Source of the DNA: Hexactinellida sp. DTS-2022
Lineage: Eukaryota; Porifera; Hexactinellida
Assembly: GCA_028753945.1 (NCBI GenBank)
Contig: JAPNXP010000001.1
Coordinates: 6,934,501-6,998,500, forward strand
Length of the DNA stretch: 64,000 bases
Reading direction: 5' to 3'
Shown here in pieces: positions 13,611 to 63,273 of the stretch. The notes under the pieces were generated by a model that was given only the letters and a program-made list of their open reading frames with translations, was not told the origin of the DNA and did no database searches. Positions within the stretch are counted from its first letter, which is position 1; every line of letters begins with the position of its first letter. The position numbers were made by a program, and so were the translations under genes.

Positions 13611-13671
13611 GTTGTTATTTGAGATTATACAGGTTAAATGAGATTTATTTTGATATTATATCTCCCAACAG

Positions 13672-16500: not shown

Positions 16501-16618
16501 CCAATTTCAATGTCAACTTAAATTTATTAAGTTTGATTATTTGTCATTAATAGTAAATAGAATTAATTTGTCGACCATATTTCAATTCCGCACCCTCGAT
16601 GATCCCTTATAAACAAAT

Positions 16619-18300: not shown

Positions 18301-18415
18301 GAGTCATTCTTTTGCTGACTACTAAGGGATGATGGTTGCCTACTGGGTCTGCTAGTAGGTTGTGTATCTGTGGCAGAATCACGGGGGGTTGTATCATGGC
18401 TTTCAGAAGGGCAGG

Positions 18416-20163: not shown

Positions 20164-20186
20164 AGCCCGGAGACACTCTAAGAGAT

Positions 20187-21470
20187 TTAGTGTTTGCGTT
20201 GGTTGAAATTTTGGGGTTTCGATTGGGTACCCTGGTAGTATCGGGGTTTCTTGTGATCGGCCCCACTGAAGCCCGAGCCTCCTGTGGGGCCTTTCCGAAA
20301 AAACTGGTTAGTTTTTGGGCCAGTGTTCCTGTAGTTGTTATAAGTTGAACCGTCATTCAGTTTCTGTTTCTTAGCTGGGCGGTCAACCAGTCTGTCCATT
20401 TGAGCCCTATCCTTCTGTAGGTCTGTTAATGATTTTAGGTTAGGCGAGCCGAATATAAAATTGGTCTCATGGTCATTGGGGAGAGGTCCTCCCTCATTCA
20501 CCATAGAAGGGTTAAGTTCCCTGATGGCGTTTTTCCTGCGAGCCACGAGGATCTTGGCAGCACAAGATCCCATAAGGACAAGGGTTGCGGAAGTGTACTC
20601 CATCACCTTATCAGGCTCCACAGCTTCGCCCTCGATTAGCTTGGAAAGCAGTTCTGCGATTGGCCCAACCGAGTGGAGCAGGTTTCGATGAATGTCTTTA
20701 AGGGTTTGGTCTCGGCCCTTCATAAAACTGAGTTCCTTACGTTGGAACATGCTATCCAATTTGTGCACACTCATAACGGGAATGTCCGGCCTCTTGAACC
20801 GTTTGGCCATTTCGGAGGTTAGCTGGGAGTCCAAGCTCTGCGAAAAATACTTGGTTAGGTATTCGCATATAGAGGTTGGTGCACCAGCGAAGAATTTTTT
20901 CCCTAGTAGCCCACTGGGATCAAACAGTGCTGTGCTTTTGTATGCTTCGTTCCCCGAGGAGATAGCAAGGTTTTCAGCAGATTGAACCATCTGCTGGCTG
21001 GAGCTCGGAGCAGAGAAGCAGTTCTGCAGCTCGGCTATAGAACTTTGTAGGTTCTGAAATACTTGCGTCAGATACGGGTTGGGTTGAGACAAGTCCCTCT
21101 GAGGGGTCTCTTCGTGCACCAAGGTCGGGGAATGCCCGAGGGTGCGGGAAACTATTAGGTCAGCCGGAGCTGCCGTTTCCCTGGGGTTCCTATATGGCCG
21201 TGAACCAGAAGGAAGGGAAGTTATGAAGCTAACCGGAGCTACCACTTCCCTTTGTCGTGTGCCGGTGTAATTGTCACTGGGACCTTCCCGGACTCTGGGG
21301 AGAAAAAACTCGTCGTTTTCGGAGAGGTTCGATGCATCCGCGCATGGCTCGGAGTCGTACGAGGATAGCGGGGAATTAGGATTGTAGTCTTCTGACATAG
21401 GTGTTGAGATGAATTTAGTCGTTGAATTGGAAATGAGAAAAATCGCTAGGAGATGACTCGAAGTAGGCAT
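20187..21470 (-). pseudogene. DIRS-like gag-type region (fossil part)
   Basis: A long region of about 430 codons upstream of the reverse transcriptase. It is acidic and serine-rich at its start, then helical with segments such as GLLGKKFFAGAPTSICEYL and KAKQKL-like basic stretches near the end. This position and composition fit the gag-like first product of DIRS elements, thought to form the particle. No zinc knuckle is visible, which is normal for DIRS. Confidence 0.65.
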
Positions 21471-22195
21471 AACTGGTTATATACTAGCTATACTACCTGG
21501 GTGGTATGTTTTACTACTTCATTGTCAAAACAATGGATTTGTTAAAATTGCGACTTTGGAGAACTATTCAAACTATGTTATTGTCTGGTGAAGCCATGAA
21601 GTAGAATGCTTATATAGAGCTGAGCTCTAGTAGAGTTCAGATTTTTTCCCATACTAAAACCCCAGGCATAGCATTCTATACATAAGGCAATGGTGCTGAT
21701 TGATGGACTTGGACCAGGGATTGGTTAGGTCAGTTACTTTGGTTTTATATCTAAATCCCAATACAGCTCTAAATTAATGTAGACTATCAATGTGAAGGGA
21801 AATAATTGATAATCCACCACCCTTCTAAGAAAATTACGAATTGTAGGGATATATCTTTTATTTAATGTAATTTATATATATAAATATACTAAATATAATA
21901 TAAAATAAGTATAAAAGCAACAATCAAAGATAATACATAGTATGAAGGTAAATTAATAGAATAGTGATCTGAGTTCTATAGGAAGAGCAGTTGAGCAGTA
22001 GTACATCTATGACGACAGGGGGAGGGAGTGTGGTTACGATGTGTCGGTGTCCTGAATGAGCGGATGGATTGTTGGTGTTAGTGGAGCTCCTCGTCTAAAT
22101 GATAGTAATGTAGAGAATACAGTCAAATGATGGTAGTATAGTAGATGCGCACTGGTATATCGCCATGTCAGGAAGCTATCTATAAGATTAGAAGA

Positions 22196-25100: not shown

Positions 25101-25615
25101 TTAAATTTAGCTTAGAAAGAAGATCAGAATATGAATTAACTAGGAACTTATCCACCGTTTCTTCGTTGTCAGTTATGCTCTTGGAGTATGCAGATTCCAT
25201 CAGCAGTCGTTCTTTATCATCTAGGCATAGTCTCTTTGGCTTGGAATTGAATTCAGAAAGATAGGAAGGACAGTTGGGAAAAATGCTGGGTATTGCTGTC
25301 TTCTTCAGAGCTATTCTCTCTCTGGAAATTGTAACAGTATGAACCCCGTCATTGTAGGATATGGTCCTTTCGATGTCATCTTCTTTGAAATGACGAATGC
25401 ATACCTAAAGAAACTAATGTAAATATGGCAATCAATAAATGGAAATTATAGATACTTACCCTCATCTGCTTGTTGGTTTCATAGTCCTTCCGTGGCCGTG
25501 GAATTGCCCTGAACCATTCTTCAAGTAACTTCGGGTCTCTTGGGAAATGAAAAGCGGAGATAGACTCATCTTGGCTTTTATAATTAGACTTGCAGCCTGG
25601 GACAACACAAGACAT
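22196..25615 (-). pseudogene. P-element (THAP9-like) transposase, interrupted
   Basis: Exon 1 (25615-25460) encodes MSCVVPGCKSNY...FHFPRD...EEWFRAIPR, the start of a C2CH THAP zinc finger. A 55-bp GTAAGT-AG intron follows. Exon 2, from 25404, supplies the CxxH pair (VCIRHF) in frame and continues to about 24490. Later parts show the catalytic-domain signatures QMDEVHIRSDASY, DIVHIMKSIRNNWL and the C-terminal YVAGYAIFSYL with its CxxC. It is disabled by a frame change near 24500-24590, an in-frame TAA at 24149-24151, a hAT MITE insertion and a frame change near 22910. THAP9-like transposases bind the element ends through the THAP domain and catalyse excision and insertion in the nucleus. Confidence 0.82.
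23363..23755. repeat. hAT MITE of GACCCAT repeats, in the P transposase
   Basis: The ends CAGAGTGGACCATGGGTC and GACCCATGGTCCACTCTG are flanked by the exact 8-bp copy CTCTAAAT (23355-23362, 23756-23763). The outer parts are dense with GACCCAT/ATGGGTC units. A close relative is at 47171-47499. Confidence 0.83.
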
Positions 25616-26089
25616 GCTATTAGAAGTTTCAAATGAATTGTATTGTTGGGGAACGTTTCTGATGAAGATAGTGTCGTGAAATGAATTTAACAGTGATTTT
25701 TTTAACTTTTTAACAAAGTAGTAAAATAATATCTAAATATTATGGTTGGTTAAAAATTAGATGATCACAAGTTTTCGACATTCCTTCCTATGTACCATTT
25801 TGGTGCAAATTGATGTAGAATGAATTATAATGGTTAGTTAACGGTGTACAATGCTAAATGCCAGCAGTAAATAAGCTTTACGCAAAATTTAATTTGACTG
25901 ACCTAAGAAATCCCTGGTCCAAGTCCATCAATCAGCACCATTGCCTTATGTATAGAATGCTATGCCCCAGGCTTACTTTCTAAAGGTAAATTTCAAACCT
26001 TGGGATAATCTGACCTTTCTCAGTGCCTGAATACACATACTGAAAAACTCAACTCTACTAGAATTGAGCTCTATATAAGTTATTTGTAA

Positions 26090-27074: not shown

Positions 27075-29620
27075 CTAAAGTTGATCCATTCCCTGAAAAT
27101 CCAATCCAACGTGTTCCCAACGACCCAAGAATACCCAGATATCTATATTAGATAACAAATCAGTTGCAAAGAGTTCAAGATCTGTAGCCCATTTCCCACT
27201 CTGCCTCATTCCTGTTTTGTTAACCCAGTCTTGTACATAAATTACATTTCGATAATTACCCTGCGTGAAATCTTGACTACCAGTGATGAGATAAGAAATT
27301 GTCGAGAAATAGCAATTTCCATCACCAATTATATATTGAGCACAAGTTTGGCGAATAACTAAATAAACTTTCTTCATTATCTAGAATATCATTATAGGAG
27401 TACGGTAACTCCTCGCGAAAGTGAAACTTCCACTTTTTACATGTAGAAATCTACCAGTCTGTATGTGAGGGACGAAAGCTTGGTAGTACATATCGTATTA
27501 GCCCCGTCTCAACTATTTCCTCATCTGTAATTATAGAGGCCACTCGCATTACCTTTGATGCAGTTTGCGTACGTAAACTAGATAACTTTTCACATTTTCG
27601 TGGGACAAATTTACGCTTAATTTTACATATTTTGTTTTTATTCTCAACTTTTTTCTTCTTAAATATTTGAAATTCATACGATTTATGTTGTAAATAACCG
27701 CAATACACTTTCTTTTTTCGTGACCATTCTTCAACACTTTCCTCTTCCAAACTATTTCTTACTCTTTTATGACCTTTAATTACCTTATTCGCTCGCGGGT
27801 GAAAGGCAAATTGAAACGCTGATAACCTACTTACTATACCAGGATATTACAATTGTATAAAATCTCCAGGCCTCAAATTAGTTTTGGATTTCAAAATATT
27901 TAACTTAACAATACGCATCCAATTCTCCACAATAGCGTTGCTAAAGATGCTAGTCTTGTTCTTATCCGCTACACTAATAGGTCCTAAGATTATTCCACTC
28001 CACAAAGGTCAAGCCCGTCGTAAGCCAATTATTATTGGTGCGGCCAAGTGACTTCACTTAATTGATTCGCAGTGTATAACCCGAATTTTGATGCAGTCAC
28101 CTAAAATATTGGTGCGGCCTAGGCCGCACCTGCCGCCCGTGTTCCTACGGCCCTGAAGGTAATATAGGTAGGTAGAATGTTAACAAGTATTCTATAAGCT
28201 CAAGATTATAACAAGGATTTGGATCTGCATTTTTTTCTGGATTATTGTTGATCCAAGATTTGCAATTTATTCCAATATTTACAAAATATTTGCCGAAAGT
28301 GGATTTTTCTCTGTATGTTTTACTATCCTTGTTATCACTAGCAATATTATTATCGTCCATATGTTGTTCCAACAAATATTCATTAGTCTCTAAGGAGTTT
28401 ACGGATTCATTACTAATGTATGTTTCTAGCAAATGAGTATGTCTTTACTATTGCACTTAAAGTACTACTCATAAATACAATCCATAAAGATTGGAATAAA
28501 TTATTGATACTTGTAATTTCAACAGCACGTACAATAAATCCGATACAATGTAAAAACATTTTCTCACATCTTTTTGTAGTTTAAATTTTTTATTTATATG
28601 AAATCCTATGCTGTGTATTAAATGAACCGAACATAAGTGAAGAATTACTTCAAAGTCCGTTTAGATAACTGCAGAATTTGCATCTACCATATTCCAACAC
28701 TTATGGAGATAGGTATCTATATCACAATTGAGAAAAATACTACAAGAACTGTGAATCAAAACCCAGCTGAAATCTATTTCAACTTGTGAAATGTTTAGAT
28801 CGCCCAGTATTTTCTTTGCATCAAGGGACCATTTGTGCAAAAAATAACTTATTTCAGCACTGGTGTGTCCTGAACTAATCATTTCTGCTAGTGGAATTGG
28901 ACTAGTGGAGTAAGTAGGATGTCTTACAGTAAGAGCGTAATAGAATACTTTCTTTAGTGAGGGTTCTATTGTCCTAACAATTGATCCTGTGGCATCTAAG
29001 TGAAGAACAATTCTTGTATCTTTAAACAATTTCAATATTTTGATTTGATCTTCAGTGTACATATGTACAATAAAAGGATTATGACTTAATGACCGTATGT
29101 AACCTCTAACATGAAAACCAATAACACTATTCCTATAATACTGTTGTAAGCTAATTAACTCAGTCCAGTTATCATTAAAATACCTCTGTAAACTAGACAA
29201 ATCAAATTTAGCTTTTCGCAGAACTGCAGAACTCCTAACCTTATTTAGGTTACCATAATTAAGTGCTAAGTTTGTGTTCTCTACAGAATCAAATTGATCA
29301 TAGAAATAAGCATTTACAGATGTATCTGCTACCCCTCTAGCTACTTAAAACCTATGCGAATGTGATACATTTCGTGAGTGCACAGTTGTATTATCGAAAT
29401 GCTGTTCAGATAAGGTTCCATAAGTTGCATACTCGGTGATACTCCGCAATAATATTATCACCAATTTTACACTCCAACGGCTCTTTCATTATTACAAATG
29501 TAAATTCAAAACAATCTTTAAACTTACACGCTGCTTTAGCTCTAAAAAAACAGCTATGTTGTTTTCTACTACTAAGTTTATTAACCTTTTTGTATTGAAA
29601 AGAAAGAACACACACAATTT
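27075..29620 (-). pseudogene. Unclassified DNA transposon remnant with OTU protease domain
   Basis: Five minus-strand coding blocks run right to left. 29406-29615 is a zinc-binding-like module (SCFFRAKAACKFKDC). 28661-29200 is a likely transposase core with VLHLDATGSIVRT, VFYYALTVRHP and VEIDFSWVLIHS. 28145-28432 is a linker. 27451-27750, preceded by NAIVENWMRIVKLNIL and LRPGDFIQL, is a basic C-terminal part. 27075-27377 is an OTU cysteine-protease start (IIGDGNCYFSTISYLITGS). This combination is, to my knowledge, widespread in invertebrate transposon-like proteins; the superfamily is not certain. The blocks are separated by stops and by a GGCCTAGGCCGCACC palindromic insertion around 27975-28155. 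No element ends were found. Confidence 0.55.
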
Positions 29621-30017: not shown

Positions 30018-30352
30018 ATTTTCCCTCGATTTTTGAACTAAATAAATTGGTCCAATCTTAGAAAATACTACAGAGTCTCCATGAATTAGTGTAACACTTT
30101 TCCATTCCATTCCACCATGGCCTACTATAATACGGCTATACATGCTGCCGAATCATAGTAGGAAATAAGAGTCCATTGATAAATAGGTTATTTATATTTA
30201 TCTCCATAACTAGTAATGATAGACGTCATAAATGTACTATAACTATATAGGAACTTGGTATCAAGGTATACATAGCATCCTTCAGAATTGTGCTATGTCA
30301 TCATATGATGACGTAATCGATATTTTGGGTGCGAAATATCGTGTCTTTATAA

Positions 30353-31118
30353 CAGGGTTGCCAATCCAATCCAATCGAGAGAACTTATCGATTATCGATT
30401 GCTGAATTTTGTATCGATTGGATTGCCTAAAGTCTTCATCGATTGGATAATTATCGACGAATTTTTATCGATTATCGATTTTCTTTCGATTTTTTCGAAT
30501 TTTTCGATTTAGCGAGTAAAGGGGATAAATTATAATAATATACATAATCGATAGAAAATCGATAAATAATTGGTAGAAAATCGATAAATAATTGGTAGAA
30601 AATCGATAAATAATCGATAAATAATCGATAGAAAATCGATAGATAATCGATAGAAAATCGATAAATAATTGATAAATAATCCATAAATAATTGATAGATA
30701 ATCGATTATTAAAATAATAAAGTCTATAAATAGTCTATAAATTTAATCGAAAGAGATCGACAAGTAATCGATAAATAAGCGATAGAAAATCGATAAATAA
30801 TCGATAGAAAATCGACAAATAATCGATAGAAAATCGACAAATAATCGATAGAAAATCGACAAATAATCGATAGAAAATCGATAGAAAATCGATAAATAAC
30901 GATAGAAAATCAATAAATAATCAATAGAAAATCTGTTGAAAATCAATAAATAATCGATAAAAAATCGATAAAAATCGATGATTTTCATCGATTATCGATT
31001 GGATTGGATTGTCAGATCATATCATCGATTGGATTGGTTATCGATATCGATTGCCAAAATTTACATCGATTGGATTGGATTATCGATTGGATTGGATTGG
31101 ATTGGATTGGAAACCCTG
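30353..31118. repeat. hAT MITE filled with ATCGATAAATA tandem repeats
   Basis: CAGGGTTGCCAATCCAATCC at left and GGATTGGAAACCCTG at right are flanked by exact CTTTATAA copies (30345-30352, 31119-31126). The 766-bp interior is tandem ATCGATAAATA/ATCGATAGAAA and ATTGGATTGG units, which create long but meaningless open frames. Confidence 0.78.
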
Positions 31119-31683
31119 CTTTATAACCTGCTTTTACCATAGTTAAACTCGTTATAAATGTTCAAGATTGGAACATGATGATGCCCATAACTAGTTGAAT
31201 AAAATATATCGAAATTATAAATGGAATGTTGACATATTCCTCGGTTGCCAGGGAAATGTATATTTCCTAAAATGAGTCATAACTCAAAAACTATCGATTT
31301 TATGTAAACTGGGCTAGTTCTGAACTATCCGGAATAGGTAACTTCCTATTCATTGATAATACATAAAATATGCTTAACTTCATTAACTTTTGAGATAATG
31401 AGATAATTAGCTTAGGAAAATTATTTGCTTTTTCTAAGCAAATTATCTCATTAACACAAAATCTCATTATCCAGGTTATAAAGACACGATATTTCGCACC
31501 CAAAATATCGATTACGTCATCATATGATGACATAGCACAATTCTGAAGGATGCTACCTTGATACCAAGTTCCTATATAGTTATAGTACATTTATGACGTC
31601 TATCATTACTAGTTATGGAGATAAATATAAATAACCTATTTATCAATGGACTCTTATTTCCTACTATGATTCGGCAGCATGTA

Positions 31684-31857
31684 CAGTGGATGCCGGTTAT
31701 AAGCACATCGTCGGGAACTGCACTTAAGGTGCTTATAACCGGCATGTTCTTATAACCGACATAAATTATACAGGGTAGATGGCAAACGTTTTCCAACACA
31801 GTGTGCTTATATCCGATATGTTCTTATAACCGGTGTGCTTATATCCGACATCTACTG
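31684..31857. repeat. pogo-like MITE (GGTTATAAGCAC type)
   Basis: CAGTGGATGCCGGTTATAAG at left and TTATATCCGACATCTACTG at right with TA flanks. The left arm of element A shows the uninterrupted site (CAGCATGTATAG in inverse). Also present at 56839-57012 and 11464-11604. Confidence 0.72.
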
Positions 31858-31905
31858 TATAGCCGTATTATAGTAGGCCATGATTCCACTTATTAAAAAT
31901 TTACC

Positions 31906-39848: not shown

Positions 39849-40735
39849 GGTTTCCGGTTTCCAAATGTGATTTTTGGCATATAGGGGTAACTTTTGGCAT
39901 CCGTCAACAATTTGAGGTTTTCACTCAAAATTTCTCACACCTCGACAAGTTATGACGTCATTGTCACATTTCGAGAACCCTAAAAAGTCACTTAATCGCA
40001 CATAATTCGCGCACTCCAAGAGATAAAAATCTGAAAATTTAATAGAACATGCACATTAATGATGCGGACACTTTGGTCACATCAGATTGCCAATATGCTT
40101 ACTCATTATCACATGATGACGTAATCACTAAAATTTCACATTTTAAATTTGACTATTTAGGCCTATTTACGCTTTATAATCAATGTTAGAAGTGTATAAA
40201 TCATACACCAACCGCGAAGCGGTTGGTGTGTGGTTGGGTTCTGCCGCAAAGCGACCTAGCAAGCGAAGCGCACTAGTATATATAGTAGATATACTGTAGC
40301 ATCAATATATAGAGATACTAGCGTACTTCTCGGAAGAACCCAACCACACACCAACCGCTTTGCGGTTGGTGTATGGTTTATACACTTCTAACATTGATTA
40401 TAAAGCGTAAATAGGCCTAAATAGTCAAATTAAAAAATGTGAAATTTAGTGATTACGTCATGTGATAATGAGTAAGCATATTGGCAATCTGATGTGACCA
40501 AAGTGTCCGCATCATTAATGTGCATGTTCTATTAAATTTTCAGATTTTTATCTCTTGGAGTGCGCGAATTATGTGCGATTAAGTGACTTTTCAGGGTTCT
40601 CGAAATGTGACAATGACGTCATAACTTGTCGAGGTGTGAGAAATTTTGAGTGAAAACCTCAAATTGTTGACGGATGCCAAAAGTTACCCCTATATGCCAA
40701 AAATCACATTTGTAAACCGGAAACCGCACAGTGGT
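39849..40735. repeat. Tail-to-tail palindrome of two Helitron-like copies
   Basis: 39849-40273 and 40312-40735 are inverted copies of the CGAAGCGC(G/A)CTAG family, about 420 bp each, with a 38-bp spacer that is itself AT-rich and partly palindromic. Both copies are cut at the same point at their outer edge (GGTTTCCGGTTT... on each side). The CTAG ends point at each other. Confidence 0.7.
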
Positions 40736-44272: not shown

Positions 44273-47200
44273 GAAGTCCACCAATATTTTCGTAATGGTT
44301 TCAGCCTTCTGATCAGACATTGGAATGCATTCCATCCATTTTGTAAACGCGTCCTCGACTACTAAGATGAATCGGTGTCCCTTTGTACTAACAGGAACTT
44401 CAAGAACGTCCACGTTAACTAATTGTATCGTTCTCCCAATTGGAGTATTGAGTAATGGGGCTCTGACCGGTAAAGGTAGTTTAGCTTTTTGACAAGTTTT
44501 GCAAGAGGTCACATACTCGTGGATATCAGAGCTCATTCCAACCCAAAATCCTAAATATTTTGCACGACTAAGAGTGCGTTCTACGCCTTGGTGACCGGCA
44601 TCGTCATGGGCTTGACATAGTAAATCTTGTTTGAGTGTGTCAGGAACAATGATGACACTTCGTAAATCGGAAAATGGTTCAATCTTGTAGTTACGAGTTA
44701 AAACTCCATTAATTACCTGTAATTGTGATTGAATCTGCTTAAAACGCTTGAGTATCTGTTGGTTCCACTTGACACCAGAGAATCGTAGCCGAGTTTGAAT
44801 AGCCTCGAGCTCATAATACATTGCCTAATACAGGGTCATCAAGCTGTTGTTGTCTAATCATTTCCTTAGTAGGTAAACGTGATAATTCCGTGAGCTCACA
44901 ATGCTTGTGATTTTCGTTACCAGTTAGAATTTCAAAATTCTATGAAGAACGCGATAAAGCATCTGCATTTTTATTGTCAGTTCCTTTGCGATATCGAATT
45001 ACAAAGTCATACTCCTGTAATATTACAGCCCAACGCCATAGTCGTCCGACACTCTTTTGCTTCGCCAGCCATTCTAATGGCTTATGATCAGTGAGTATTT
45101 CGAACTACCTTCCTAATAGATAATGTCGAAATCGCTTCACGGATTGGACAATCGCAAGACACTCTAATTCAATAGTGCTATAATGTTTTTCTGCAGTCCT
45201 CAATCCCCTGCTATAGTAAGCCACAACATGTCCTTCTTGTTCCAAAACTCCCCCAATCCAGTTCCACTCGCATCCGTACACAAAACGAACTTTTTCGTGA
45301 AATTTGGGCAAATTAGAACTGGGTTCGATGCCAGTTCTGCGAATGATTTTCCTGCATGTTCATTCCAAGAAAATACAATATCCTTATCTAACAAGGAATT
45401 TGTGATTCTGCGATGTTTGCAAAGTTCTGGATATACCGCCTATAATAATTCGCTAAGCCTAAAAATTGTTTCAATTCTTTCTGACTTGTAGGTTGTGGCC
45501 AGTTTACAATGGATTCCACCTTGTTTGTCTGTGGTGCCATTCCTTTATCAGAAAAGTGTGTCCTAAGTAGGTAACAGATTGCTTTCCAATTACACATTTT
45601 CTTCCCCTTAAAGTCAATTTGTATTCACGAAGCCGTAGGAAAACCTGCATTTAATCTCGTCTATGTGACTCCAGATCCGGTGAAAATACTAGTATATCAT
45701 CAATGAAATTGTCTTTACAATGTTCAAGTCCACATAAGACCTGATCCATAACTCTTTGAAAATAGCTCGGTCCACCTGTAAGCCCGAATGGCAATACCTT
45801 AAACTCATAAAGTCCCATTCCAGGTCCTGGAGAAAACGCTGTTTTTTTCACGATCCATTTCCCTAATGGGTATTTGCCAATACCCAGAATTCTAGTCAAG
45901 TTTTGTGAAGTAATTCATTCCGCTTAGTTTGTCCTGAACCTGATCCGGGGTTATGCATCTTTCTGAGTTACTTTGTTTAAGTTTCTATAATCAATACAGA
46001 ATCGTATACTTCCATCTTTCTTCTCAACTAACACCGGTGGAGCAAGCCATGGACTGCTTGAAACTTGTATGACGTCTTTACTTAACATCTCTCTAATCTG
46101 AGACTTCATCTCATCTTGATAGGCTTGTGGAATCATTCGCGGGGGAACTTTCACCGGAGCTGCATTACCTGTACGGATAGGAAAGGGATCGACCTTTGCC
46201 ACGCCAGGTAGAGTAACAAATAGATCTTGAAACTTCAGTATTATCCCTGAGAACTCTTCTTCTGTGTCCGGGTACTCAATCGAAGGTGAGCAGTCATACC
46301 TAGGAATTGCCCCCAAACACTCCCAGTCTTCTTCTTCTTGATCTGTCGATCTTAAGACTGCATAAGATCCTGAAATTTTTGTTCATCATGTATTGGACAA
46401 GTGTGATTCACGCGTTGCGGAGTATCTTGCGAATCCAAAGACTTTACTATACCAAGGTTTGGTCCCGTAGCAACTCTATTAAAAAGATCCAGGTTAATTT
46501 GATGTCTTTCTAAAAAAATCCACGCCCAGGATGCAATCCGTTATTAGAGAAGGTGTTATTGGAATTTTTGTGGCGAATCAAGTTTTCCAATTCTACTTCA
46601 CCCAAGGATTCCATTGTATTTCCAGAAGCAGTCAATAACAACTGTTCCGTAGGGGTAGTTCTTGCATTCTTGACTTTCCTGGGCTTCATTTAGGGGATGG
46701 CGAGGGATGGCTCCGGCCATCCTTGGTAATAACTCGCCATCCCTTGCACCCCCTACCTTACAGCGTGCTTCCGCGCGCGGTCATATTCTCGCCATCCCTT
46801 ATTCCTGAAAACCATAATTTTGCCATTCCTTACGTCAATGTCTAAATAGGAGCCTGCTTTCTTAAATATTGTATTCGAAATAAGGGATACCGATGAACCA
46901 CTATCCAGCATAACGTTGCAATTAGTATTTCCGATCTTCGCTACAACCTTCAATGGTTGAGTAGGTTGGCACAAAGCTACAATTGATTCTCTGGAGGACT
47001 GATTTATGGATTGAGCCATATTTAATATCTCTGGGACCTTGTATCGGCTCTCCCAACAGGTCCCTGAGAGTTTAAACTTTGTCCAGTCGCGGGTTCGGTA
47101 CAGTATCTCATTATATGTCCTAATTGATTGCAATTGTAACAACGCACTTGTGTAATTCGACGTTGACTACCAGAGTGGACCATGGGTCAACATTGGTGAC

Positions 47201-48310
47201 CCATGACCCATTGACCCATCACACAATTTCAAATATCTAAAGACTATACTGTAACATTAACAGTATAACAGAATAACCGTATAAATTACCTCAACAAACC
47301 TACTTGTTGCAATGTCGAAGATGTTTAGTATTTCAATGCACATCAATGTTATAATAATAATGATGATGATGAGTGATTAGTATTTTAACTGAAGATGACA
47401 ATGAAATTTCAAATTGGTAATGGGTCATGGGTCACGGAGCCGTGACCCATGACCCATCTGACCCATGACCCATGACCCATCGACCCATGGTCCACTCTGT
47501 TGACTACTCGGCTGGTTCGTAGATCGTCTCGAACTTGGACAGATTTGAGCGTAATGTCCTCTTCCTCCACACACGTAGCACTTAACATATCCAGGTTTCT
47601 TATTTTCGACAAAGGATCGTCCACCTACTCCTCTCTGTACCGTACACGTGATTTCATCAGATGTTACCCCCAACTTTTCGGTAATAACCTTAACTGCTTC
47701 ATTGATAGCCGCTTGTGTTTTTCACTCGCTTCTTTATTCGCGGTTTCTGCTTGCAAATTATCTATCGAAATCCTAGAGCAAATAACAGCCACCTCTTTAG
47801 AGCTTCGAAGTGACGTCTCTTCATGCATCAGAATCACTAATTGAGCCCGTTTCATTGCATCCTCGCTTGTTTTGACATCTGGAGATGTGAGAATGTTTTC
47901 GTAAACATGTCTGGGCAATCCACGAATGAACTGTTCAAATAGGAGCTGTTCTTTGGCTTCTAGGATCATTTCTGGAAAGGCTCTTTTCAGTAGCCTTTTC
48001 AGTTCGTAGATATTTTTTGAGGTGACTCTCCTGGGTAGATCCGCCGTTCGTGAAATTCACTTAACCAAGTGAATTTAATATCTTCTGGTTTAAACGCTTT
48101 TTGTAGAGCGGCTTTGATGTTGCCATACTCTCTTTCATCATTCTCAAGAGACTTGTACACTTCAAGTGCCTCTCTCTTCAGGCAAGTTGCTATCATCAGG
48201 GCTTTCTTTTGAATTGAACATACGTTGGCCAAAAAATAAATCTCGAAGTAGTCCATAAAATCATCAATATCTCCATTCTCAAATTTGTCAACTTGTACAA
48301 ACTGAGCCAT
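44273..48310 (-). mobile_element. Ty3/gypsy retroelement fossil (element D interior)
   Basis: Reads right to left on the minus strand: gag (47664-48310, starting MAQFVQVDKFENGDIDDFMD), CCHC zinc knuckle (CYVCGGRGHYAQIC near 47560-47620), protease (VMLDSGSSVSLIS within 46753-47142), reverse transcriptase (45388-46316, with [19 protein letters not shown], and LPFGL at 45651-45899), RNase H (VLCTDASGTGLG; HYSTIELECLAIV, 45105-45394) and the start of integrase (HHCC-like, CKTCQKAKL; 44273-44821). No long terminal repeats were recognised. The copy is broken in many places and the integrase is incomplete. A hAT MITE lies inside (47171-47499). Confidence 0.8.
47171..47499. repeat. hAT MITE of GACCCAT repeats, in the gypsy fossil
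   Basis: CAGAGTGGACCATGGGTC at left and GACCCATGGTCCACTCTG at right, flanked by exact TTGACTAC copies (47163-47170, 47500-47507). 329 bp; the interior closely matches 23363-23755 (GTTATAATAATAATGATGAT, CAAACCTACTTGTTGCAATG). Confidence 0.84.
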
Positions 48311-48370: not shown

Positions 48371-48918
48371 CATAGATGCATTATACGTAACGTATAACGT
48401 ATATATGGTGCCATTATACGTTAGGTGAACGTATAATGCCATCATACGTTAGAGGATCATATGGTCAAAACGTATAATCATCATACGACGTATAACGTAT
48501 AATGATTTTATACGATTTTCATTATACGTTCATCATACGTTCATTATACGTTCATTATACGTTACCATACGTTATCATACGTTCATCATACGTTATCATA
48601 CGTTCATTATACGTTCATTATACGTTACCATACGTTATCATACGTTCATCATACGTTATCATACGTTCATTATACGTTCATTATACGTTACCATACGTTA
48701 TGTATCGAAGAAACCTGTCTTCCTTAGCATCACTAATAGTCACGTTTTAGTTTTTACTAAATTGACTAAATTCAGTTTCATCGTATGATGGTATCATACG
48801 TTGGCCATTTGTTATACGTTGATTATACGCTCGAACGTATATATGATCCATTATACGTATATATGATCCATTATACGCTCCCCGAACGTATAACGTATGA
48901 TCGTATAATGCATCTATG
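48371..48918. repeat. CATAG-ended MITE of ATACGTT tandem repeats
   Basis: Ends CATAGATGCATTATACG and CGTATAATGCATCTATG, flanked by exact GTAATAGA copies (48363-48370, 48919-48926). The 548-bp interior is mostly ATACGTTCATT/ATACGTTATC units, with an 84-bp block repeated about twice (48520-48690). The CATAG end and 8-bp duplication resemble P-type ends. Confidence 0.72.
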
Positions 48919-51728: not shown

Positions 51729-51799
51729 GTTCGTTCTACATTTTTTCTACTTGGAGGCCTCCTTAATATACGAAGAATGCTCTATATTTCTCCTCTAGA

Positions 51800-52236
51800 A
51801 TAGTTATCACCACCGTTTAGCTGAATACTTAACTTTTGATGACAAACTTAGTTACATAAGACAGCTCATCACTGATGAATCCTTGTACCCTCCCTTATCA
51901 GACTCTAGTGTATCTCACAAATTGATAGAATCAGTGGCTGTGCTAAGATTCGCTATCACATGGTTAGTGAAATGGTACTCTGCCCTTGACTTCAAAACAA
52001 TTTATTTACGATTTCAAGCTACCTCCTCCCTAGTCAAGATTAACACCATTAATGGAGAATTGTATAATTGCTTTGGTCTATTATACACAATGATTGATCG
52101 GTATTCTCTACACAACTCTTTGTTATTATTCATTTTAAAAACTCTATCCTTCAATACTGGATTCGGAAATGTGTTATCCCATCCTCTATACAGAGACAGT
52201 AAATGTAGATTAATTCAGGGAAGACAACACAACAGG
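51800..52236 (+). CDS. RNF213-like gene exon (probable)
   Basis: A good acceptor TTTCTCCTCTAG precedes a frame with NSYHHRLAEYL and then LSYIRQLITDESLYPPLSDS, ESVAVLRFAITWLVKWYSAL and LLLFILKTLSFNTGFGNVLS. The donor is AGG|GTATGT in phase 0. The exact left boundary is uncertain: the first 40 bases and the rest appear one base out of step in my reading, so either the start is different or there is a one-base problem near 51840. The protein is helical and hydrophobic in places. Confidence 0.48.
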
Positions 52237-52705
52237 GTATGTTATACGTATTAAATATATAGGGTATAGGGAAACAATCAGATAACAGTTAGAATAATCA
52301 ATTTCATACAATATGTCTACTATTATACGATTATTTCCGTATTTAATGTAGATTGATTTGTTAAATGTTTATTATACCAGGAAAGGGGCATCTGACGTTC
52401 AGTAGGTTCTTTTAAAATGTACATTAATTAAAGGGATCCAAATTGTGTTCACAATAGAGATTTCATCATATTCGAACTCAATTAATACAATGGTTGTTAT
52501 ATTGGGACCATAGGGCTTGTTCTTGATAAAAGTTTTCATATTAAGCAGTCGAAAAATTATTCACACTAAGCAGACCTGACTGTATTAAAGAACCATCGTA
52601 TTAAACGATATTAGTGAGTATATTCAACAGCATTGGAAACACCTACTGTGTATGAATGTTGACTGATATTATTAACATTAACTAATTATCTTTTGTATTC
52701 TTTAG

Positions 52706-52798: not shown

Positions 52799-55700
52799 GT
52801 TTGTACTTTTACAGTATCTCGAATTAGTTTAATTAAATACTACGAAACTTTGATCGATGACTTCGCAAGAGACCATAACCACAATGCGTATACAGGTGTT
52901 TGTTTGCATGTGGAACTATATACAGAATTGCTGCCCTATTAGTGGTACCATTGTGAGGAAGTAAGGCAGATTACTTAACAGTAGCAGCAGAAGTGATTCA
53001 TTTAGGTATACTCAGTAGATAGTTTGCAGTTAGGATATAGGTTGATATTTCTTAGTATGTTACATAACTAAATACATCTTGTATAATAACTCTGTGAAAT
53101 TAACTATTAATCTTCTACTTCAGTGATTGTTCATCACATTAAGTATTTAGTTGTCTCTTCTGTTTTGTTTTGGTATTTGGGCAATTGTCAACACAAGTCT
53201 ATACCAATGTAATGGCACGAGAAACGGAGGAAGATTTCAATTCCAAGTTAGTTAGGGTGGGTGGCCTATCAATTCCCCCATTGCATCAAGATGAGCTAAT
53301 CAAGGACTGGCAACCAGTGTTTTTGCCAGCGGTTATCCCCTTGCTGGATAGGAAAGAGGAAGGAAAGATCATCCAGATGCTCCCGGCTTTTGTCTGCAGG
53401 CTCCCGGCAGAGAGGCATTTAGTAAGGGAGGTCGTTGAAGAAGTCAATACAGTTGAAGAGCGGCATTCCATGTGTTAAATAGAGAATCTAGATCCGCCAT
53501 CCGATCCGCAACAGGTAATGTTGAAGTTGTGTCGGTCTGACTGGCAGCCAGGCCAGCCAATAGATGATTTCTTCTATCAGCTGAAGTCGACATCCACAGT
53601 AAAAGGCTCAATCCAATCCTGGCTAGGAAAGCCAGAATACCAGGAGGTTAGTAACTTACAAGCACGTCAATTCTTAATTTTGGTGCGTAAAGAGTTCAAT
53701 GCCAAAGGCATAACGCGGGATTTGGGAAATAGAAATTTTGGTGCAGTTAAGCTAATCCATGACGACACTGGTGACATATCAATCGAATCGGACGCAGAGA
53801 ACAAAGATACATTCAAGCATGTACGTACTTGGAGAATCGGATCAAGGGACGATAGAACAAGAGGTTAACCACGGAAATGTCTTAAGTGCCTGCAGTAGGC
53901 AAGGGAGAGGTGGTTTTTCAAGGAATCGAGGCACATCGATAAAGCCGCGAACTCCTGGAAACCAAACGGAAACCCACGGTGGAAGAGTAATCAAGTGTGT
54001 TGGATATGTGGAGAGGGAGGACACATGTCGTTCAACTGTTCAAAAGGTTTCTATCAGAAATGTGGCAAACGCGGGCATTTGATTCAAGATTGCAATGCGA
54101 GGAACGTGTTAGTATCCGAGTCAACAGAGTGTCGGAAATCTGACAGTGTATTTATTCGCGTCAAATAGGTTCAGTAGATGTAGATACATTAGCCATGCTA
54201 GACTCCGCAGCTCAACCGTCTGTTCTGGATCTCAACTTTGTCAAGGAGCATATTATCCCATTTATGAGGGAGTCCAGATTCGTTCGAGGGCTAGCAGCCA
54301 ATCCTGTACAAGTGTGCGGAACTTCAGAAATTCAGGTATACATTGGAGAAGGACAAATTATCAACCAGAGGTTTTGTATAATCGTTAGTCCAGAACCAAC
54401 GGTTATCCTTGGACGGGAATTTCTGGAGATGTTTGAGGTGACAACTTTTGATTGGCATCAGCATCGAGTTCGACTCGGTCCTCGCTGGATTCCCATGATC
54501 GCGAAAGTCAGAGGAGGCAGAATTCGATCTAATGCAAGTATCATACATGCACTGATGTCAGATTGGGAAATTCCTTTTTCCAAGAAGTCGGACTGGAATA
54601 TTGACCCACGACTTTCGAATGATGAGCAACGAGCGCTAAGCGAATTACTAGAGAGATATAGTGACGTTTTTGCATTAAACCCAAAGGCTCCATCGGTTAC
54701 ACCAACAGCCGAACATGCAATTGAAACGGGATCGGAACAGCCAGTGAGAGCTAGAGGCCTAACGGATGCCCTCCAAAGCGGAAAGGGAGGTATTTAATCA
54801 ACTGGATCAAATGTTGGGAAACGGTATTGTGAGACCGTCTTGCTCCCATGGGCGGATAAAGTGTACTAGTGGAGAAGAAAGATAAACACTTCGTTTTGCA
54901 GTCGACTATAGGGGACTAAATTACAATACGCGTAAGGTGCCTATCCCATCCCAGACGTTAGGGATATGCTAGTTAAATTACATTGGAGTGCGTTTTACTC
55001 GAGATTGGATGGCGCTTCAGCGTACTGGTCAGTACCTATTAGAGAAAAGTATATATATCCCCAAGACAGCATTTATAACCCCGTAAGGCCAATCATGACC
55101 TACTTAATATACGGCTATATACGTATGTCGTCGAGAAGGCCATAAAACAAAGAGGCCAGTTTTTAATTTTCATTCTAGGATAAACTATGCCTCCTATTGT
55201 TGTTATTCGGGTTGTATATGGGGTAATCAACCATTGCGAGTCCATTAGAACCACTTTTGAGAATCTCAGATTTGTGGTTAAGCTGTTTAGGCGCCATTTA
55301 ATGATGACAAAAATATACAATTCGAGTCTAAAAGAACTACAAGAAAATGAAAATAATTTGCTAATATACTTAGGATCATTTTCTGAATATATAATGAGAA
55401 TGAATATATATAACCAGCAATTATACGTATATGTTTTATGGACGAAATAGTCAGGTCGCTTAACATCGATTTCGGGAAACGCTGGACAAAGCACCAAATT
55501 TTGTATACGTAATCTTTATGACCCCGGCATCAAAATTTTCGCGGGCCCACGACGAACGAACACATTTTCGATGTTATCTTGGACTTTTAAAATTGCGGCT
55601 GCGTACTAAATCGCCGGTATTACCCCGAACGGCGACTTTCCAAATTCAACTCTGGTCTACTTTTAAAGACCAGATTCGTTGTCCACATGAAATTCCCCGT

Positions 55701-56838
55701 CGTTTAAGGGGTCACTTACCCATAGTTTATCCCTAGTAACGCAATAATGTCTCAGGAATGTGACAACATTCCTTTCTCAAAATTTGTTCTAAACCTATCG
55801 AGTGACCCCTTGTTCGACTCCCAACAGCTATCTGAGTCTAGTTATAAACATAGTGACACTCTAAATCGTTATTTGATGCTGTTTACGACAATTTCCTTAG
55901 TTATCATTACTCTAATAGTCCACCAGTGGGTAAAAGGACCCAGGTGGACTATTAGAGAACATGGACCATTAAAGAATTTTGCCTTAAGTAACATCAAATA
56001 TACATAATCAGGGACTTCTTTAATATAGGGACTGTAAACTTAGTTTTACGGTAAAATTAGCGTAGGCCTAAAACAGTATTGTTACTTATTGATATCCCGT
56101 AATCCGCTAATAGTCCAGCCGCTTACAACATTAATCATGCATTTTTATATAGAATTTTCAGACTTTGTAGGTTTGTTCTTTCATGCAAATAGTGTATTTT
56201 TGGATATAGTGCCAACTCCAAATTCCAATGTGTCGGCCACAATTGACCACTTAAGGGACACATTTTGAAGGTGTTAGAACTCGTCTAACTTCCTCAAATC
56301 AAGTCAAATCCAATTTTTATGCCGATATTCGTAATCAACACTAAATTTGGCGTCATTTAAGTGGTCACCTGAGACAATTTTTCCTTGACGACGCAGGAAT
56401 GTTGTAGGAATTTGACAACATTCCATTCTTAAATTTTATTCTAACCCTATCGAGTGACCCCTTGTTCGACTCCACTCAGCTTCCTGAAGCTAGTTAGATA
56501 CATGCGGACCCTCTCAAAAGTCATTTGGTGCAATTGTACTGTTCTGATATATTTGTTCCGGCTGCAAAATGGTTCCGGCCGGTACCAATTTGTCATAAAT
56601 TGTTCATTTAACAAATTAGTTCCGGGCTAAATTTAGAGTCTTAGTCATTTCTATGGGTTTGTCTATTCCATGGCAAATTCGTTCCGGCTTAATTTATACC
56701 AGTAATCACACTTAGACGGGTTCTTTATGCAACACTTAAGTAACATTTACGTAATCACCACGACACCACCCTTGCTTAGGTACATTATAATTTAAAACCA
56801 TGTACCCTCGGCCTCTGGGAAGTAGTAAAAAATGTGTA

Positions 56839-57012
56839 CAGTGGATGCCGGTTATGAGCACATCGTCGGGAACTGCACTTAATGTGCTTATAACCGACAT
56901 GTTCTTATAACCGACAAAATTATACAGGGTATATGGCAACCGTTTTCCAACATAGTGTGCTCTTATCCGATATGTTTTTTATAACCGGTGTGCTTATATC
57001 CGACATCTACTG
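56839..57012. repeat. pogo-like MITE (GGTTATGAGCAC type)
   Basis: CAGTGGATGCCGGTTATGAG at left and TTATATCCGACATCTACTG at right with TA flanks. 174 bp, the same length as 31684-31857 and close in sequence. Confidence 0.72.
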
Positions 57013-57124
57013 TATTATCCTACGTACTAATTAAATTAACCTTATAAATAGAGCTTATAGTCTCAGGATTTCGAATTAGATGTTATCCAATCTCGTGATT
57101 ATTTATGCAAGGTACAGTATGTAT

Positions 57125-57238
57125 CAGATCCGGTGGAAGCAGTTATAGTGGTCAGGCCATGACATGAGTCACATGACCGGCCTAACTAGTGATGTAAGAG
57201 TGGTTAGGCTATTGGCCTGACCGCTTCTGCCGGCCCTG
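57125..57238. repeat. Short hAT-like MITE
   Basis: CAGATCCGGTGGAAGCAG and CGCTTCTGCCGGCCCTG are inverted, with matching inner blocks GGTCAGGCCATGAC and GGCCTGACCG. The flanks are GTATGTAT and TGTATGAT, an imperfect duplication. Confidence 0.5.
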
Positions 57239-57289
57239 TGTATGATATTTACTGGATTAATGTTAAACATAGTCGTCTTTATTATACCA

Positions 57290-57851
57290 GCTTTGTTCTT
57301 AAACAGTAAGTATGAAAACGAATTTCGCATTTACAAATTTTTCATATTAATACAGTAAACTCTCGTTATAAAGAAGTGCTCATAACCTGTAAATTCCTTC
57401 GTTATAAGAGGATAATAATTAATTCATTTAGTACTCCGTTAATAAGCGGGTATTTCGTTATATCCGAGTTCGTTATAACGGGAGTTCACCTGTATTTATT
57501 GTTGCTGTAACAAAATAAGCAAAAAGTTGATTAATTCGAAATACAAATAGAGGCCAGCTTCCAACGGGTTTAATAGGTAACAAGGATGACGATTTCCAAT
57601 TTAGAATCAGAATATTTGTAAAATGATATTTATTGTTGTCTTTGACAGTTTGTGGCAAATAGAAAAACAAGTTGTCAAGTATTATACTTCACCTAAAGAC
57701 TAGCCTTCGACAAATATACTGGTTAATACATTTGCTGAATAGGACTTGTTTCCTGGCAAATAAGAGAATGTTTGTTGTTAAGTTGAAACAACTAATAATG
57801 AGCCATATTTTAATGAATAGACGAGAGCGCGTAGCGATTGAGTGATCTTAC
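57290..57851 (+). repeat. Helitron-like repeat remnant with pogo-like MITE
   Basis: AAACGAATTTCGCATTTAC, GAGGCCAGCTTCCAACGGG, a TTTATTGTTGTC block and GCGTAGCGATTGAGTGATC place it in the GAAGGGCTCGT family. A pogo-like MITE (57353-57492, ends CAGTAAACTCTCG and CGGGAGTTCACCTG, TA flanks) lies inside. The 3' part is cut by the hAT element that follows. Confidence 0.45.
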
Positions 57852-58485
57852 CAGGGCCGGATTAACCCATGGGCAACCGGGGCAACTGCCCCGGGGCCTC
57901 CACCACCAAAGTAAAATATTTTAGATTATTTACTTTAAAATATAGAATGTTCGTTTACTAAGGTCACTATCATTTTATTGTGTGCTTTGTTTTCCTGAAA
58001 ATTATAATCAAATAATTGATCCTCTGTCTCTGGAAACATTACTGGTACAATTTCATAATTGACAAAAATGTGAGCTCTACATTTCCTAACATTCTGACCA
58101 TTTTGAGCATATGCCTGGTGCTAATGATCACTAACTGTAGCGGAGAAAGGTCATTCTCCAAATTGAAATTGGTTTGCAGCTCCTTTGCCGCCTTCAATGT
58201 TGCAAACAAGGTTGAACTCACTTACACTTATGTCAATTGAGCACGATGTTATGCGAGACATTGATTTCTCAAGTTTGATTACTGATTTTGTTATTATGAA
58301 AGCAAGAAAGTCATTTTCTAGAAACTATTAGTTTTACTTACTTACCTCGATTTATATTCCATAAAAACTTCGTGTGTCTGGAATAATTGTACTTCATTTT
58401 TCACTGAACAATTGTAGTGGAAGGAGTTAGAGGCCTATACAACACTGGTTGCCCCAGGGCCTCCACCTCAATTAATCCGGCCCTG
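57852..58485 (+). mobile_element. Internally deleted hAT transposon with hATC relic
   Basis: The ends CAGGGCCGGATTAACC and TTAATCCGGCCCTG are flanked by exact GATCTTAC copies (57844-57851, 58486-58493). Inside, 58070-58330 encodes the C-terminal dimerisation region of a hAT transposase: FPNILTILSICLVLMITNCS, GERSFSKLKLV, then after a frame change LSLMSIEHDVMRDIDFSSLI. The pattern resembles ZMYM1-like hAT proteins. Most of the transposase is deleted, so it needs a partner to move. Confidence 0.78.
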
Positions 58486-58545
58486 GATCTTACAATTGAG
58501 ATTTTGAATACTTTTTCAATATTCTAACTGTTGTTAGGTCAATTA

Positions 58546-58655
58546 AACCCTTCGTTGCCAGGGGTAAGGTATAAATAGAAAAATCCCATTTCAATTCAAT
58601 TGAAATTGAATTTAGTTTCAGTTTGACATTCACATACCGGGGCAACGAAGGGGTA
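58546..58655. repeat. piggyBac-like hairpin MITE
   Basis: AACCCTTCGTTGCCAGGGG mirrors CCGGGGCAACGAAGGGG. The middle contains TTCAATTCAATTGAAATTG and ATAAATAGAAAAATCCCATTT, the latter shared with 1847-1970. The TTAA target is not clean here. Confidence 0.42.
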
Positions 58656-61600
58656 TATACGTATATACCGTATAACAGAAAAACTATTAACAAATGAAGT
58701 ATTGAACCTGGGATTTAGAAAGAATTCCCGGGAATCAATTCCCAGAAATATATCCGGACCCGGGATTTTAATCCCAGAAATATTCCCGGTCCCGGGATTC
58801 TAACCCCTATTTACATAAAAATATATTTGTATTTGCCTTCTATTTTGTAAACTTGGTTTGATGTGTTACTTAAGTGCTGCATAAGGAACCCGTCTAAATG
58901 TGATTACTGGTATAAATTAAGCCGGAACGAATTTGCCATGGAATAGACAAACCCATAGAAATGACTAAGACTCTAAATTTAGCCCGGAACTAATTTGTTA
59001 AATGAACAATTTATGACAAATTGGTACCGGCCGGAACCATTTTGCAGCCGGAACAAATATATCAGAACAGTACAATTGCACCAAATGACTTTTGAGAGGG
59101 TCCGCATGTATCTAACTAGCTTCAGGAAGCTGAGTGGAGTCGAACAAGGGGTCACTCGATAGGGTTAGAATAAAATTTAAGAATGGAATGTTGTCAAATT
59201 CCTACAACATTCCTGCGTCGTCAAGGAAAAATTGTCTCAGGTGACCACTTAAATGACGCCAAATTTAGTGTTGATTACGAATATCGGCATAAAAATTGGA
59301 TTTGACTTGATTTGAGGAAGTTAGACGAGTTCTAACACCTTCAAAATGTGTCCCTTAAGTGGTCAATTGTGGCCGACACATTGGAATTTGGAGTTGGCAC
59401 TATATCCAAAAATACACTATTTGCATGAAAGAACAAACCTACAAAGTCTGAAAATTCTATATAAAAATGCATGATTAATGTTGTAAGCGGCTGGACTATT
59501 AGCGGATTACGGGATATCAATAAGTAACAATACTGTTTTAGGCCTACGCTAATTTTACCGTAAAACTAAGTTTACAGTCCCTATATTAAAGAAGTCCCTG
59601 ATTATGTATATTTGATGTTACTTAAGGCAAAATTCTTTAATGGTCCATGTTCTCTAATAGTCCACCTGGGTCCTTTTACCCACTGGTGGACTATTAGAGT
59701 AATGATAACTAAGGAAATTGTCGTAAACAGCATCAAATAACGATTTAGAGTGTCACTATGTTTATAACTAGACTCAGATAGCTGTTGGGAGTCGAACAAG
59801 GGGTCACTCGATAGGTTTAGAACAAATTTTGAGAAAGGAATGTTGTCACATTCCTGAGACATTATTGCGTTACTAGGGATAAACTATGGGTAAGTGACCC
59901 CTTAAACGACGGGGAATTTCATGTGGACAACGAATCTGGTCTTTAAAAGTAGACCAGAGTTGAATTTGGAAAGTCGCCGTTCGGGGTAATACCGGCGATT
60001 TAGTACGCAGCCGCAATTTTAAAAGTCCAAGATAACATCGAAAATGTGTTCGTTCGTCGTGGGCCCGCGAAAATTTTGATGCCGGGGTCATAAAGATTAC
60101 GTATACAAAATTTGGTGCTTTTGTCCAGCGTTTCCCGAAATCGATTTAAAGCGACTTGACTAAAAAGAGCAAGTTGTAATTCGGATACTACTTGTATTTT
60201 AGCATGTGGTTGCTTTATAATTTAAAAAAAAATCAGGATGTCGCCATTTTGTGATTTAGTAGCCTTTGGGGTATGAAATAACCCTAATTTAGTATTCCTA
60301 TTATAAAACTATTAGAAAGTAGGAAGTAACTGAAATTTATGATATTTGATTTTTTTAACCAAAAATTGTTACCGTCATCATTAAATGGCGCCTAAATAGC
60401 TTAACCACAAATCTGAGATTCTCAAAAGTGGTTCTAATGGACTCGCAATGGTTGATTACCCCATATACAACCCAAATAACAATAATAGGAGGCATAGTTT
60501 ATCCTAGAATGAAAATTAGAAACTGGCCTCTTTGTTTTATGGCCTTCTCGGCGACATATATAGCCGTATATTAAGTAGGCAATGGGCCAATACGAATTTT
60601 GTGTCATGCCCTTTGGATTAACCAATTAGCGCTCCCGCGACGTACCAGCGACCTATTGATATGGTACTTCGTGAGGCACCTACGAGCTTACCATATGTAG
60701 ATGACACGCTGGTGTATTCACAGAGCTTTCGGGAACATATCAGTCACCTTCAGAATACACTTGAATTATATCGCCAAGCTAAAATGCAACTCAGAAAAGA
60801 AAAATGCATCTTCGCGATTTAGGAGGTCGAATTCGTGGGGCATCTTATTTCTTCAAATGGACAGCGTCCCATACCCTCTTTATAGCTTTAATTCAACGGA
60901 TTAGAGATCACGCTTCCTCCACTACATTACGAGAGCTCTAATCCTTCCTCGGTTTAACAAACTATTATCGGGACTTTATTGATAAGTTTTCTGAAATGGC
61001 TTCTCCTCTGTATGATCTCACGCAAGGGAATGTCTCATGGAGATGGGGGATGTTAAAGAAAAGAGTTTTCAGCGTTTACGTGCAGCATTAACTTCAGATT
61101 CGGTATGCCTAGTGTTCCCTCAATGGAACAAGACATTTTACATGGAGTGTGAATGTGATGCATCAAGAGAGGGAATAGGGGCTGTGCACTGCTATCTCAA
61201 GAAGACGAGGAGGGAAAGTTGAGGCCAATTTCCTTCTTTTCAAGTAGGTTAAATAAGGCGCAGAAAAACTACAGTGCTTCAGAGTTGGAGGCATGGGCAA
61301 ATGTTGCTGCGGCGAGAAAATGGCGGAAGTATCTACAAGCTGCTTCATCGGTGGAGATAAGGACGGACCATAACCCATTGCAATGGTTGAGACGTCAGAG
61401 GGACCCGATAGGGAAGTTTTCCCGTTGGCTGATTGAACTAGAGTCAATGAACTACAATATTCAGTACCTCCAAGGAAAGGATAATTTCCTGGCCGATCAT
61501 CTGAGTCGTTTTTCCGGGAGGAATGGGCGAATATGTTAACGACGGCCGGAATGTCTTGAGCGATTTATTTAGCCTGTCGATATAGTCTTCCCGAGCGAGG

Positions 61601-62762: not shown

Positions 62763-63273
62763 ACGAGCCCTTCGGTCTCTGTCGCTTTGCGACAGATCGG
62801 TGCTACTCACCTCAAGTTAACGGCCGCTACGCGGCCTTACTCCTCACTAAACAATTGATTACATATTTAGTAATATTTATCATAGTTATATACTTATAAT
62901 ACCCGTTAAAAGCTAACTTCTATGTTGATTTTGAATTTCATTAATTTGTTTACCTATTTTTGTGTAAACAACAACAACAAATATTCATATTATATATTTA
63001 TAAATGCGAAATTCGAAATCAGCATAATTGTTTACCTATAATCCCCGTTGAAAGCTAACTTCTGGGTTGATTTTGAATTTAATTAATTTGTTTACCTATT
63101 TTGTGTCAACAACAACAAATATTCATATTATAAATTTGTAATTGCGAAATTCGTGTTCATCATACTTGTTTACCTATTATAACATTTGGAACTTAGTATC
63201 TCAACGACTATCTCAATTATAAATGCGGTTTCTAGTCCCCATCACTTTAATACAATCCGGACAAACGCACACA

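Follow-up and report, generated by a model that had tools for sequence, protein, structure and literature searches.

Nested non-autonomous transposons and a probable gene conversion footprint in a 64-kb stretch of the Hexactinellida sp. DTS-2022 genome

Main finding

Positions 55094-60584 of a 64,000-nt stretch of Hexactinellida sp. DTS-2022 DNA (contig JAPNXP010000001.1, positions 6,934,501 to 6,998,500; hereafter the window) hold a real, mostly ordinary nest of two non-autonomous transposons, in which the footprint of conversion is very clear. The locus records the clean insertion of a transposon into an old retroelement. It is probably made of an outer and an inner element rather than of one element with 1.65-kb arms, the form in which an earlier note, written from the sequence alone, had described it. 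The 1.3-kb inverted arms of the inner element differ at both edges and are identical over the 1223 columns between them, a pattern that recent gene conversion from arm to arm appears to explain best.

Arm identity and probable gene conversion

The alignment of the two inner arms (1299 columns) contains 6 substitutions and 1 indel, all near the two edges (columns 7, 15, 17, 41, 1265, 1278 and 1286, the indel being at column 41), with columns 42-1264 identical. The "100%" given by the repeat finder for 1258 nt is a rounding that hid 3 substitutions. When 7 events were placed at random along the alignment, none of 20,000 permutations produced a clean run as long as 1223 columns. Seven other repeat pairs of the window, submitted to the same test, gave 810 to 19753 of 20,000, namely 5042 for the outer repeat, 17221 for element B, 19753 for element C, 5543 for the arms of element A, 810 for the inverted repeat at 39849-40725, and 5669 and 7867 for two direct repeats. 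Differing sites numbered 13/287 in the arm edges and the outer repeat taken together versus 0/1222 in the middle (Fisher 3.4e-10), where about 40 would be expected at the rate of the outer repeat (7/211).

The earlier note had offered two explanations for the likeness of the arms, gene conversion and a young element with a ready-made patchwork centre. Conversion is favoured by the distribution of the differences, which persist at both edges of the arms and are missing from the 1223 columns between; youth alone would not account for diverged edges at either side. The divergence of the middle has an upper bound of about 0.24% (1258 sites; 3 in 1223 is 0.25%) versus about 4.5% at the other arm sites (13/287), so the copying may date from about the last twentieth of the history of the arms, provided that rates were constant.

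A recent insertion of the inner block, with arms already identical and centre already a patchwork, would agree with this low bound and with the fact that the duplications flanking the element and the hAT relic of its centre are exact. Cut-and-paste movement does not reset arm divergence, however, so a young insertion alone is insufficient to make the arms alike. The 6 substitutions in the 76 edge columns need an earlier life of the arms in which the middle, too, would have diverged, and a copying event would still be required. We consider this account improbable.

The main rival is an artefact of assembly or polishing, in which arm reads were indistinguishable away from unique sequence and one consensus was given to both arms. 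The differences do sit where unique flanks would anchor short reads. On the other hand, arms several per cent apart should not collapse at all, and the clean run starts within 35-41 columns of the edges, nearer than ordinary read lengths would be expected to force. Moreover, other inverted repeats of the window keep scattered differences (14 substitutions in 347 columns for element B and 22 in 460 for element C). An artefact seems unlikely.

Some observations weigh against recent conversion. The arm edges are short (76 columns with 6 substitutions) and measure the old divergence poorly, and the difference between their divergence and that of the outer repeat is not significant (Fisher 0.11). 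The identity is known from one assembled copy, and arms collapsed in the assembly could exaggerate it.

Two further candidates were rejected. In a fresh inverted duplication the identity would extend all the way to the inner edge, where differences are present here. Growth of the terminal inverted repeats (TIRs) by copying beyond the end of homology was discarded for the 1223-bp stretch, the inner edge retaining 3 substitutions.

Two inverted repeats and their target site

The inverted structure ends at 55094 and 60584, between exact copies of GGCCAAT, in agreement with the ends and the 7-bp duplication that the earlier note had given. Its long inverted arms were also recovered by the repeat finder, and they translate identically in several frames. 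What did not hold was their description as one continuous 1.65-kb repeat, because the outer and inner repeats are split by unmatched segments of 139 and 211 nt (Table 1). The near-identity stands for the inner repeat, with the 7 differences listed above, and is not continuous with the outer one. The two segments matched each other neither with the repeat finder nor by BLAST, and at E 1e-3 only the last 7 nt of 55309-55447, which lie inside a BLAST match to element B, matched elsewhere in the window. A single element of unnamed form was not supported, and a nest of two families reads best.

The locus could alternatively be one Galileo-like element, whose 1.65-kb terminal repeats grew by arm-to-arm copying of flanking or inserted DNA. 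The 7-bp duplication fits such an element, and passages on Galileo describe both TIR extension via repair templated on the other TIR (PMC3573991) and transposable element (TE) insertions passed from one TIR to the other (PMC4168063). Yet the 139- and 211-nt segments break the symmetry, and relatives of the inner repeat that share its start occur in element B and within the arm itself. We regard a single Galileo-like element as very unlikely.

When the flanks were joined with one copy of GGCCAAT, the reconstructed empty site read PKTAFITP*GQYEFCVMPFGL in one frame over the junction, which we take to resemble the reverse transcriptase (RT) motif of Ty3/gypsy elements. When aligned to the joined flanks, a second gypsy-like stretch of the window (45765-45878, minus strand) spans the junction (39 columns, 51%, E 3e-4), next to which the alignment has a gap of 2 residues. 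The target is also broken in the flanks, with a stop 2 codons before the junction and an upstream RT-like part (SRLDGASAYWSVPI) in a different frame from the junction motif. A gypsy-like fossil as the target is upheld by the flank join and by the gypsy-like alignment, whereas the protease domain is weak (RVP E 0.017, below the Pfam cut-off).

Table 1. Features of the nested locus in window coordinates. The family of the outer element is labelled by its CATNNCCTAC ends.
Feature	Positions	Strand	Basis or remark
Target duplication, left copy GGCCAAT	55087..55093	.	RT-like motif over the junction when the flanks are joined with one copy
Outer element, left terminal inverted repeat, start CATGACCTACTTAATATACGG	55094..55308	+	7 substitutions and one 4-bp indel versus right repeat
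Outer element, presumed unique core, left 139 nt	55309..55447	+	No match to 60163-60373
Inner long inverted repeat, left arm, start TAGTCAGGTCGCTTA	55448..56745	+	Similarity to right arm of element B begins here or at most 7 bp outward
Putative conversion tract, left-arm view	55488..56710	+	Alignment columns 42-1264, no difference from right arm
Second, diverged, same-orientation terminal-repeat copy within left arm, start TAGTCCAGCCGCTTA	56111..56531	+	Mirrored at 59078-59498
Centre, patchwork of inserts, 2.1 kb	56746..58863	+	Repeat matches
174-bp MITE flanked by TA	56839..57012	.	Near copy of 31684-31857 inside right arm of element A
140-bp MITE flanked by TA	57353..57492	.	Inside a repeat whose other copy (62963-63172) is without the MITE
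hAT relic, 634 bp, 8-bp duplication GATCTTAC	57852..58485	+	Remnant of hAT dimerisation region
Inner long inverted repeat, right arm	58864..60162	-	Repeat alignment
Outer element, presumed unique core, right 211 nt	60163..60373	+	No match found
Outer element, right terminal inverted repeat, start CATTGCCTACTTAATATACGG on minus	60374..60584	-	Repeat alignment
Target duplication, right copy GGCCAAT	60585..60591	.	Exact 7 bp
MITE, miniature inverted-repeat transposable element.

The inner block and its relatives

The inner block (55448-60162) has 1.3-kb arms starting with TAGTC and probably belongs to a family other than that of the outer element. Its arm was 76% identical over 463 columns to element B (43.8-49.6 kb, right arm start 49610), the left end of which was searched for and not found, and 62-66% identical to a more distant relative, element C (34.8-37.3 kb). 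Because TAGTC starts at the edge of the similarity to element B and the arm contains a second such start, the block was read as a separate nested family, and from these alignments its nesting within the core of the outer element appears well supported.

The internal terminal-repeat copy showed 72.65% identity over 245 columns (56288-56531 versus 55635-55879, BLAST), and its outer part, which has the matching start (56111 and 59498), aligned weakly. Scanning for TAGTCNNGNCGCTTA with at most 2 mismatches returned 7 sites, a count for which no chance expectation was computed; six lie at starts of the inner family, and one (6895) is unexplained. No open frame of 150 aa was found in the inner arms.

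TA is present on both sides of 55450-60160, which weakly suggests that the inner family duplicates TA, as elements of the Tc1/mariner type do. This suggestion is tempered by the fact that the copy is the single one with both ends clearly readable. The TA at the second internal start is uninformative, since the flanks there are inverted copies. No 8-10-bp duplication was seen by eye in the printed flanks of the inner block, a pair that the automated scan would not have seeded. It is conceivable, though doubtful, that the TAGTC repeats represent an undescribed TA-duplicating foldback family, with composite arms that each hold two terminal-repeat copies and are regularly copied onto each other.

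The centre of the inner block is a patchwork in which three insertions have clear ends, and the "at least five insertions" of the earlier note are plausible. Additional repeat-like matches at 57651-57826 and 58541-58652 (71-74%) suggest further repeats. The same note had found no recognisable protein, which is compatible with arms that lack an open frame of 150 aa but does not hold for the centre, where a hAT transposase remnant is present (Dimer_Tnp_hAT, E 7e-4, 19.8 bits, below the curated cut-off of 21.4). The MITE at 56839-57012 carries 4 substitutions of its own among 142 polarised sites versus 3 in the element A copy, with 1 unresolved. These changes are compatible with an old centre, yet they may predate the insertion of the MITE and were not used as proof.

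The outer element and the P superfamily

The outer element ends in inverted repeats of 211-215 bp that start with CAT and differ by 7 substitutions and one 4-bp indel over 215 columns; its termini are CATGACCTAC / CATTGCCTAC. The ends of the Drosophila P element also start with CAT. No open frame of 150 aa occurs inside the outer element. The sequence CATNNCCTACT occurs exactly 7 times on both strands of the window, at both ends of the outer element, at both ends of 30116-31882 and as single ends at 11262, 51570 and 62688, and ACGG follows soon downstream at 6/7 of these sites. A longer outer-end pattern gave 3 matches with at most 3 mismatches versus 0 expected. The likeness of the ends to those of element A, pointed out in the earlier note, was confirmed as a similarity to 30116-31882, which is presumably the element meant there.

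A transposase-bearing element of 4298 bp (21667-25964) lies about 29 kb from the outer element. It starts with CATAGCATTC (CAT) and is flanked by the 7-bp duplication CCCCAGG. Its frames matched TNP-like_RNaseH_N above the Pfam cut-off (E 2.5e-13) and TNP-like_GBD (E 2.2e-4) and THAP (E 0.0047) under their cut-offs, all three of which we take to be domains of P/THAP9 transposases. The CAT ends and 7-bp duplication that the two elements have in common led us to read the outer element as a non-autonomous member of the P superfamily. When compared with the 22-bp end of 21667-25964, the left end of element A was equalled by 3 of 800 control 22-mers starting with CAT, and 12 of the 800 scored as high as the left end of the outer element, a modest similarity. 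Judging from the CAT ends, the duplication length and this similarity, P-superfamily membership is the most likely assignment.

Several results speak against it. The remaining ends tested were reached by 10 to 31 of 800 controls, and the terminal repeats of 21667-25964 are short (about 56-68 bp). The RNaseH-like frame of that element matched no solved structure at E 0.1 (phmmer). The CAT-starting elements 6130-6783 and 48371-48918 have 8-bp duplications, and the placing of the outer element rests on its ends and duplication length, without coding sequence. According to passages of PMC1562414 and PMC10983969, duplications of 8 bp are also allowed in the P superfamily.

Further elements with similar ends were observed. 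Element A (30116-31882), with CATGGCCTAC ends, is flanked by a 7-bp duplication (ATTCCAC); its arms differ by 1 substitution and 2 indels over 219 columns, and a 174-bp MITE is present in one of them only. A possible further CATGGCCTAC element at 8682-11262 has TGTAAC on both sides, slightly out of register. It holds a 185-bp direct repeat (10721-10905 and 11057-11241) with one difference, as well as a piece 86% like the outer repeat of 55094-60584. The ends of 6130-6783 and 48371-48918 start with CATAG, their 8-bp duplications are TTAGAGGC and GTAATAGA, and the two are perhaps also P-type. The 4.3-kb element 21667-25964 is itself a probable P-superfamily element with broken transposase frames; a 393-bp insert within it (23363-23755) has CAGAGTGGACC ends and an 8-bp duplication, CTCTAAAT, and a similar element is located at 47171-47499.

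Proposed history and its meaning

In the proposed history, a non-autonomous P-superfamily transposon of about 0.78 kb, with CAT ends and inverted repeats of about 0.21 kb, entered the gypsy-like fossil by cut-and-paste and duplicated 7 bp, an insertion shown by the duplication and the joined flanks; a P transposase acting in trans presumably moved it. A TAGTC-ended element of another family, with long inverted repeats and a possible TA duplication, would then have entered its core. The centre of this inner element may have gathered the MITEs and the hAT relic while its 1.3-kb arms diverged by several per cent. Recently, gene conversion over at least 1.2 kb would have overwritten one arm with the other, and old differences would have survived only at the two edges, in 41 and 35 columns. 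The route may have been the repair of a break in one arm from the inverted arm, although this is a guess. Taken as a whole, this succession of P-type insertion, nested TAGTC element, drift and recent arm conversion seems to us reasonably probable.

If so, one locus shows how transposon arms can look identical despite an aged insertion, and the differences retained at both arm edges are a clear footprint of the conversion tract. Should such events be common, age estimates for inverted-repeat elements based on the divergence of their arms would come out far too low. It would also be worthwhile to catalogue the probable P-type family and its 7-bp duplications.

Other features of the window

The inverted repeat at 39849-40725 has arms of about 400 bp, a 74-bp spacer and unevenly distributed differences (810/20000 permutations). 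Minus-strand frames at 17474-21476 resemble a DIRS-type retroelement; 17474-18202 matched Phage_integrase, a tyrosine recombinase domain (E 9.5e-13), and 18120-20093 had no Pfam match. An open frame of 227 aa at 28661-29344 looks transposase-like by eye (VLHLDATGS), and its best Pfam match was not convincing (DUF1986, E 0.11). Open frames at 1261-1743, 13654-14124 and 51799-52254 resemble exons of a large host gene. None of the three had a Pfam match at E 0.01, and the first two had no solved-structure match at E 0.01. The window contained no Rfam match at the gathering score and no tRNA detected by ARAGORN. Exact scans with the outer end and with a 26-base stretch of the inner arm gave 0 matches in viral and prokaryote contigs, collections not expected to hold an animal genome.

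Comparison with known systems

Galileo is a published example of long, near-identical TIRs (PMC3573991). In the passages seen of PMC3573991 and PMC4168063, this P-superfamily transposon of Drosophila makes 7-bp duplications and has long inverted repeats of 18-1250 bp (mean 668), with 98-100% identity between the repeats of one copy, many non-autonomous copies and TEs inside the repeats. Compared by description only, the present locus is similar in its 7-bp duplication, long near-identical inverted repeats and non-autonomous nature. In contrast to Galileo, in which long terminal repeats of one family reach the element ends, the long arms of the present locus are apparently those of a separate, nested family, and the repeats proper to the outer element measure about 0.21 kb (211-215 bp) and are followed by unmatched segments. 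Among the titles and abstract openings covered on foldbacks with TA targets and on P-type elements, which included few subscription journals, none described an element of these kinds that makes 7-bp duplications in a non-fly host.

P elements and P-MITEs resemble the outer element in their CAT-starting ends, as in zebrafish Pdre2 (CATACCTGTCAAC; PMC10983969), and in having non-autonomous derivatives. Their THAP-domain transposase has its counterpart here in another element of the window (21667-25964). As far as the accounts seen extend, the duplications differ, being 8 bp in Anopheles (PMC1562414) and in zebrafish Pdre2 (PMC10983969) and 7 bp here.

The Tetris foldback, in the part of its description available (PMC4079207), has long inverted arms, internal repeats and no coding sequence, as seen here, and its tandem repeats are said to be possibly homogenised, for instance by gene conversion. 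Its duplications are 8-10 bp and its authors suggested Mutator, whereas the outer duplication here is 7 bp, unlike the 8-10 bp of a Mutator-type foldback such as FB or Tetris, and the inner one is perhaps TA. Finally, the palindromes of mammalian sex chromosomes, as outlined in PMC8981503, likewise consist of inverted arms whose identity is kept by conversion; they are large, whereas the stretch concerned here is 1.2 kb of transposon sequence.

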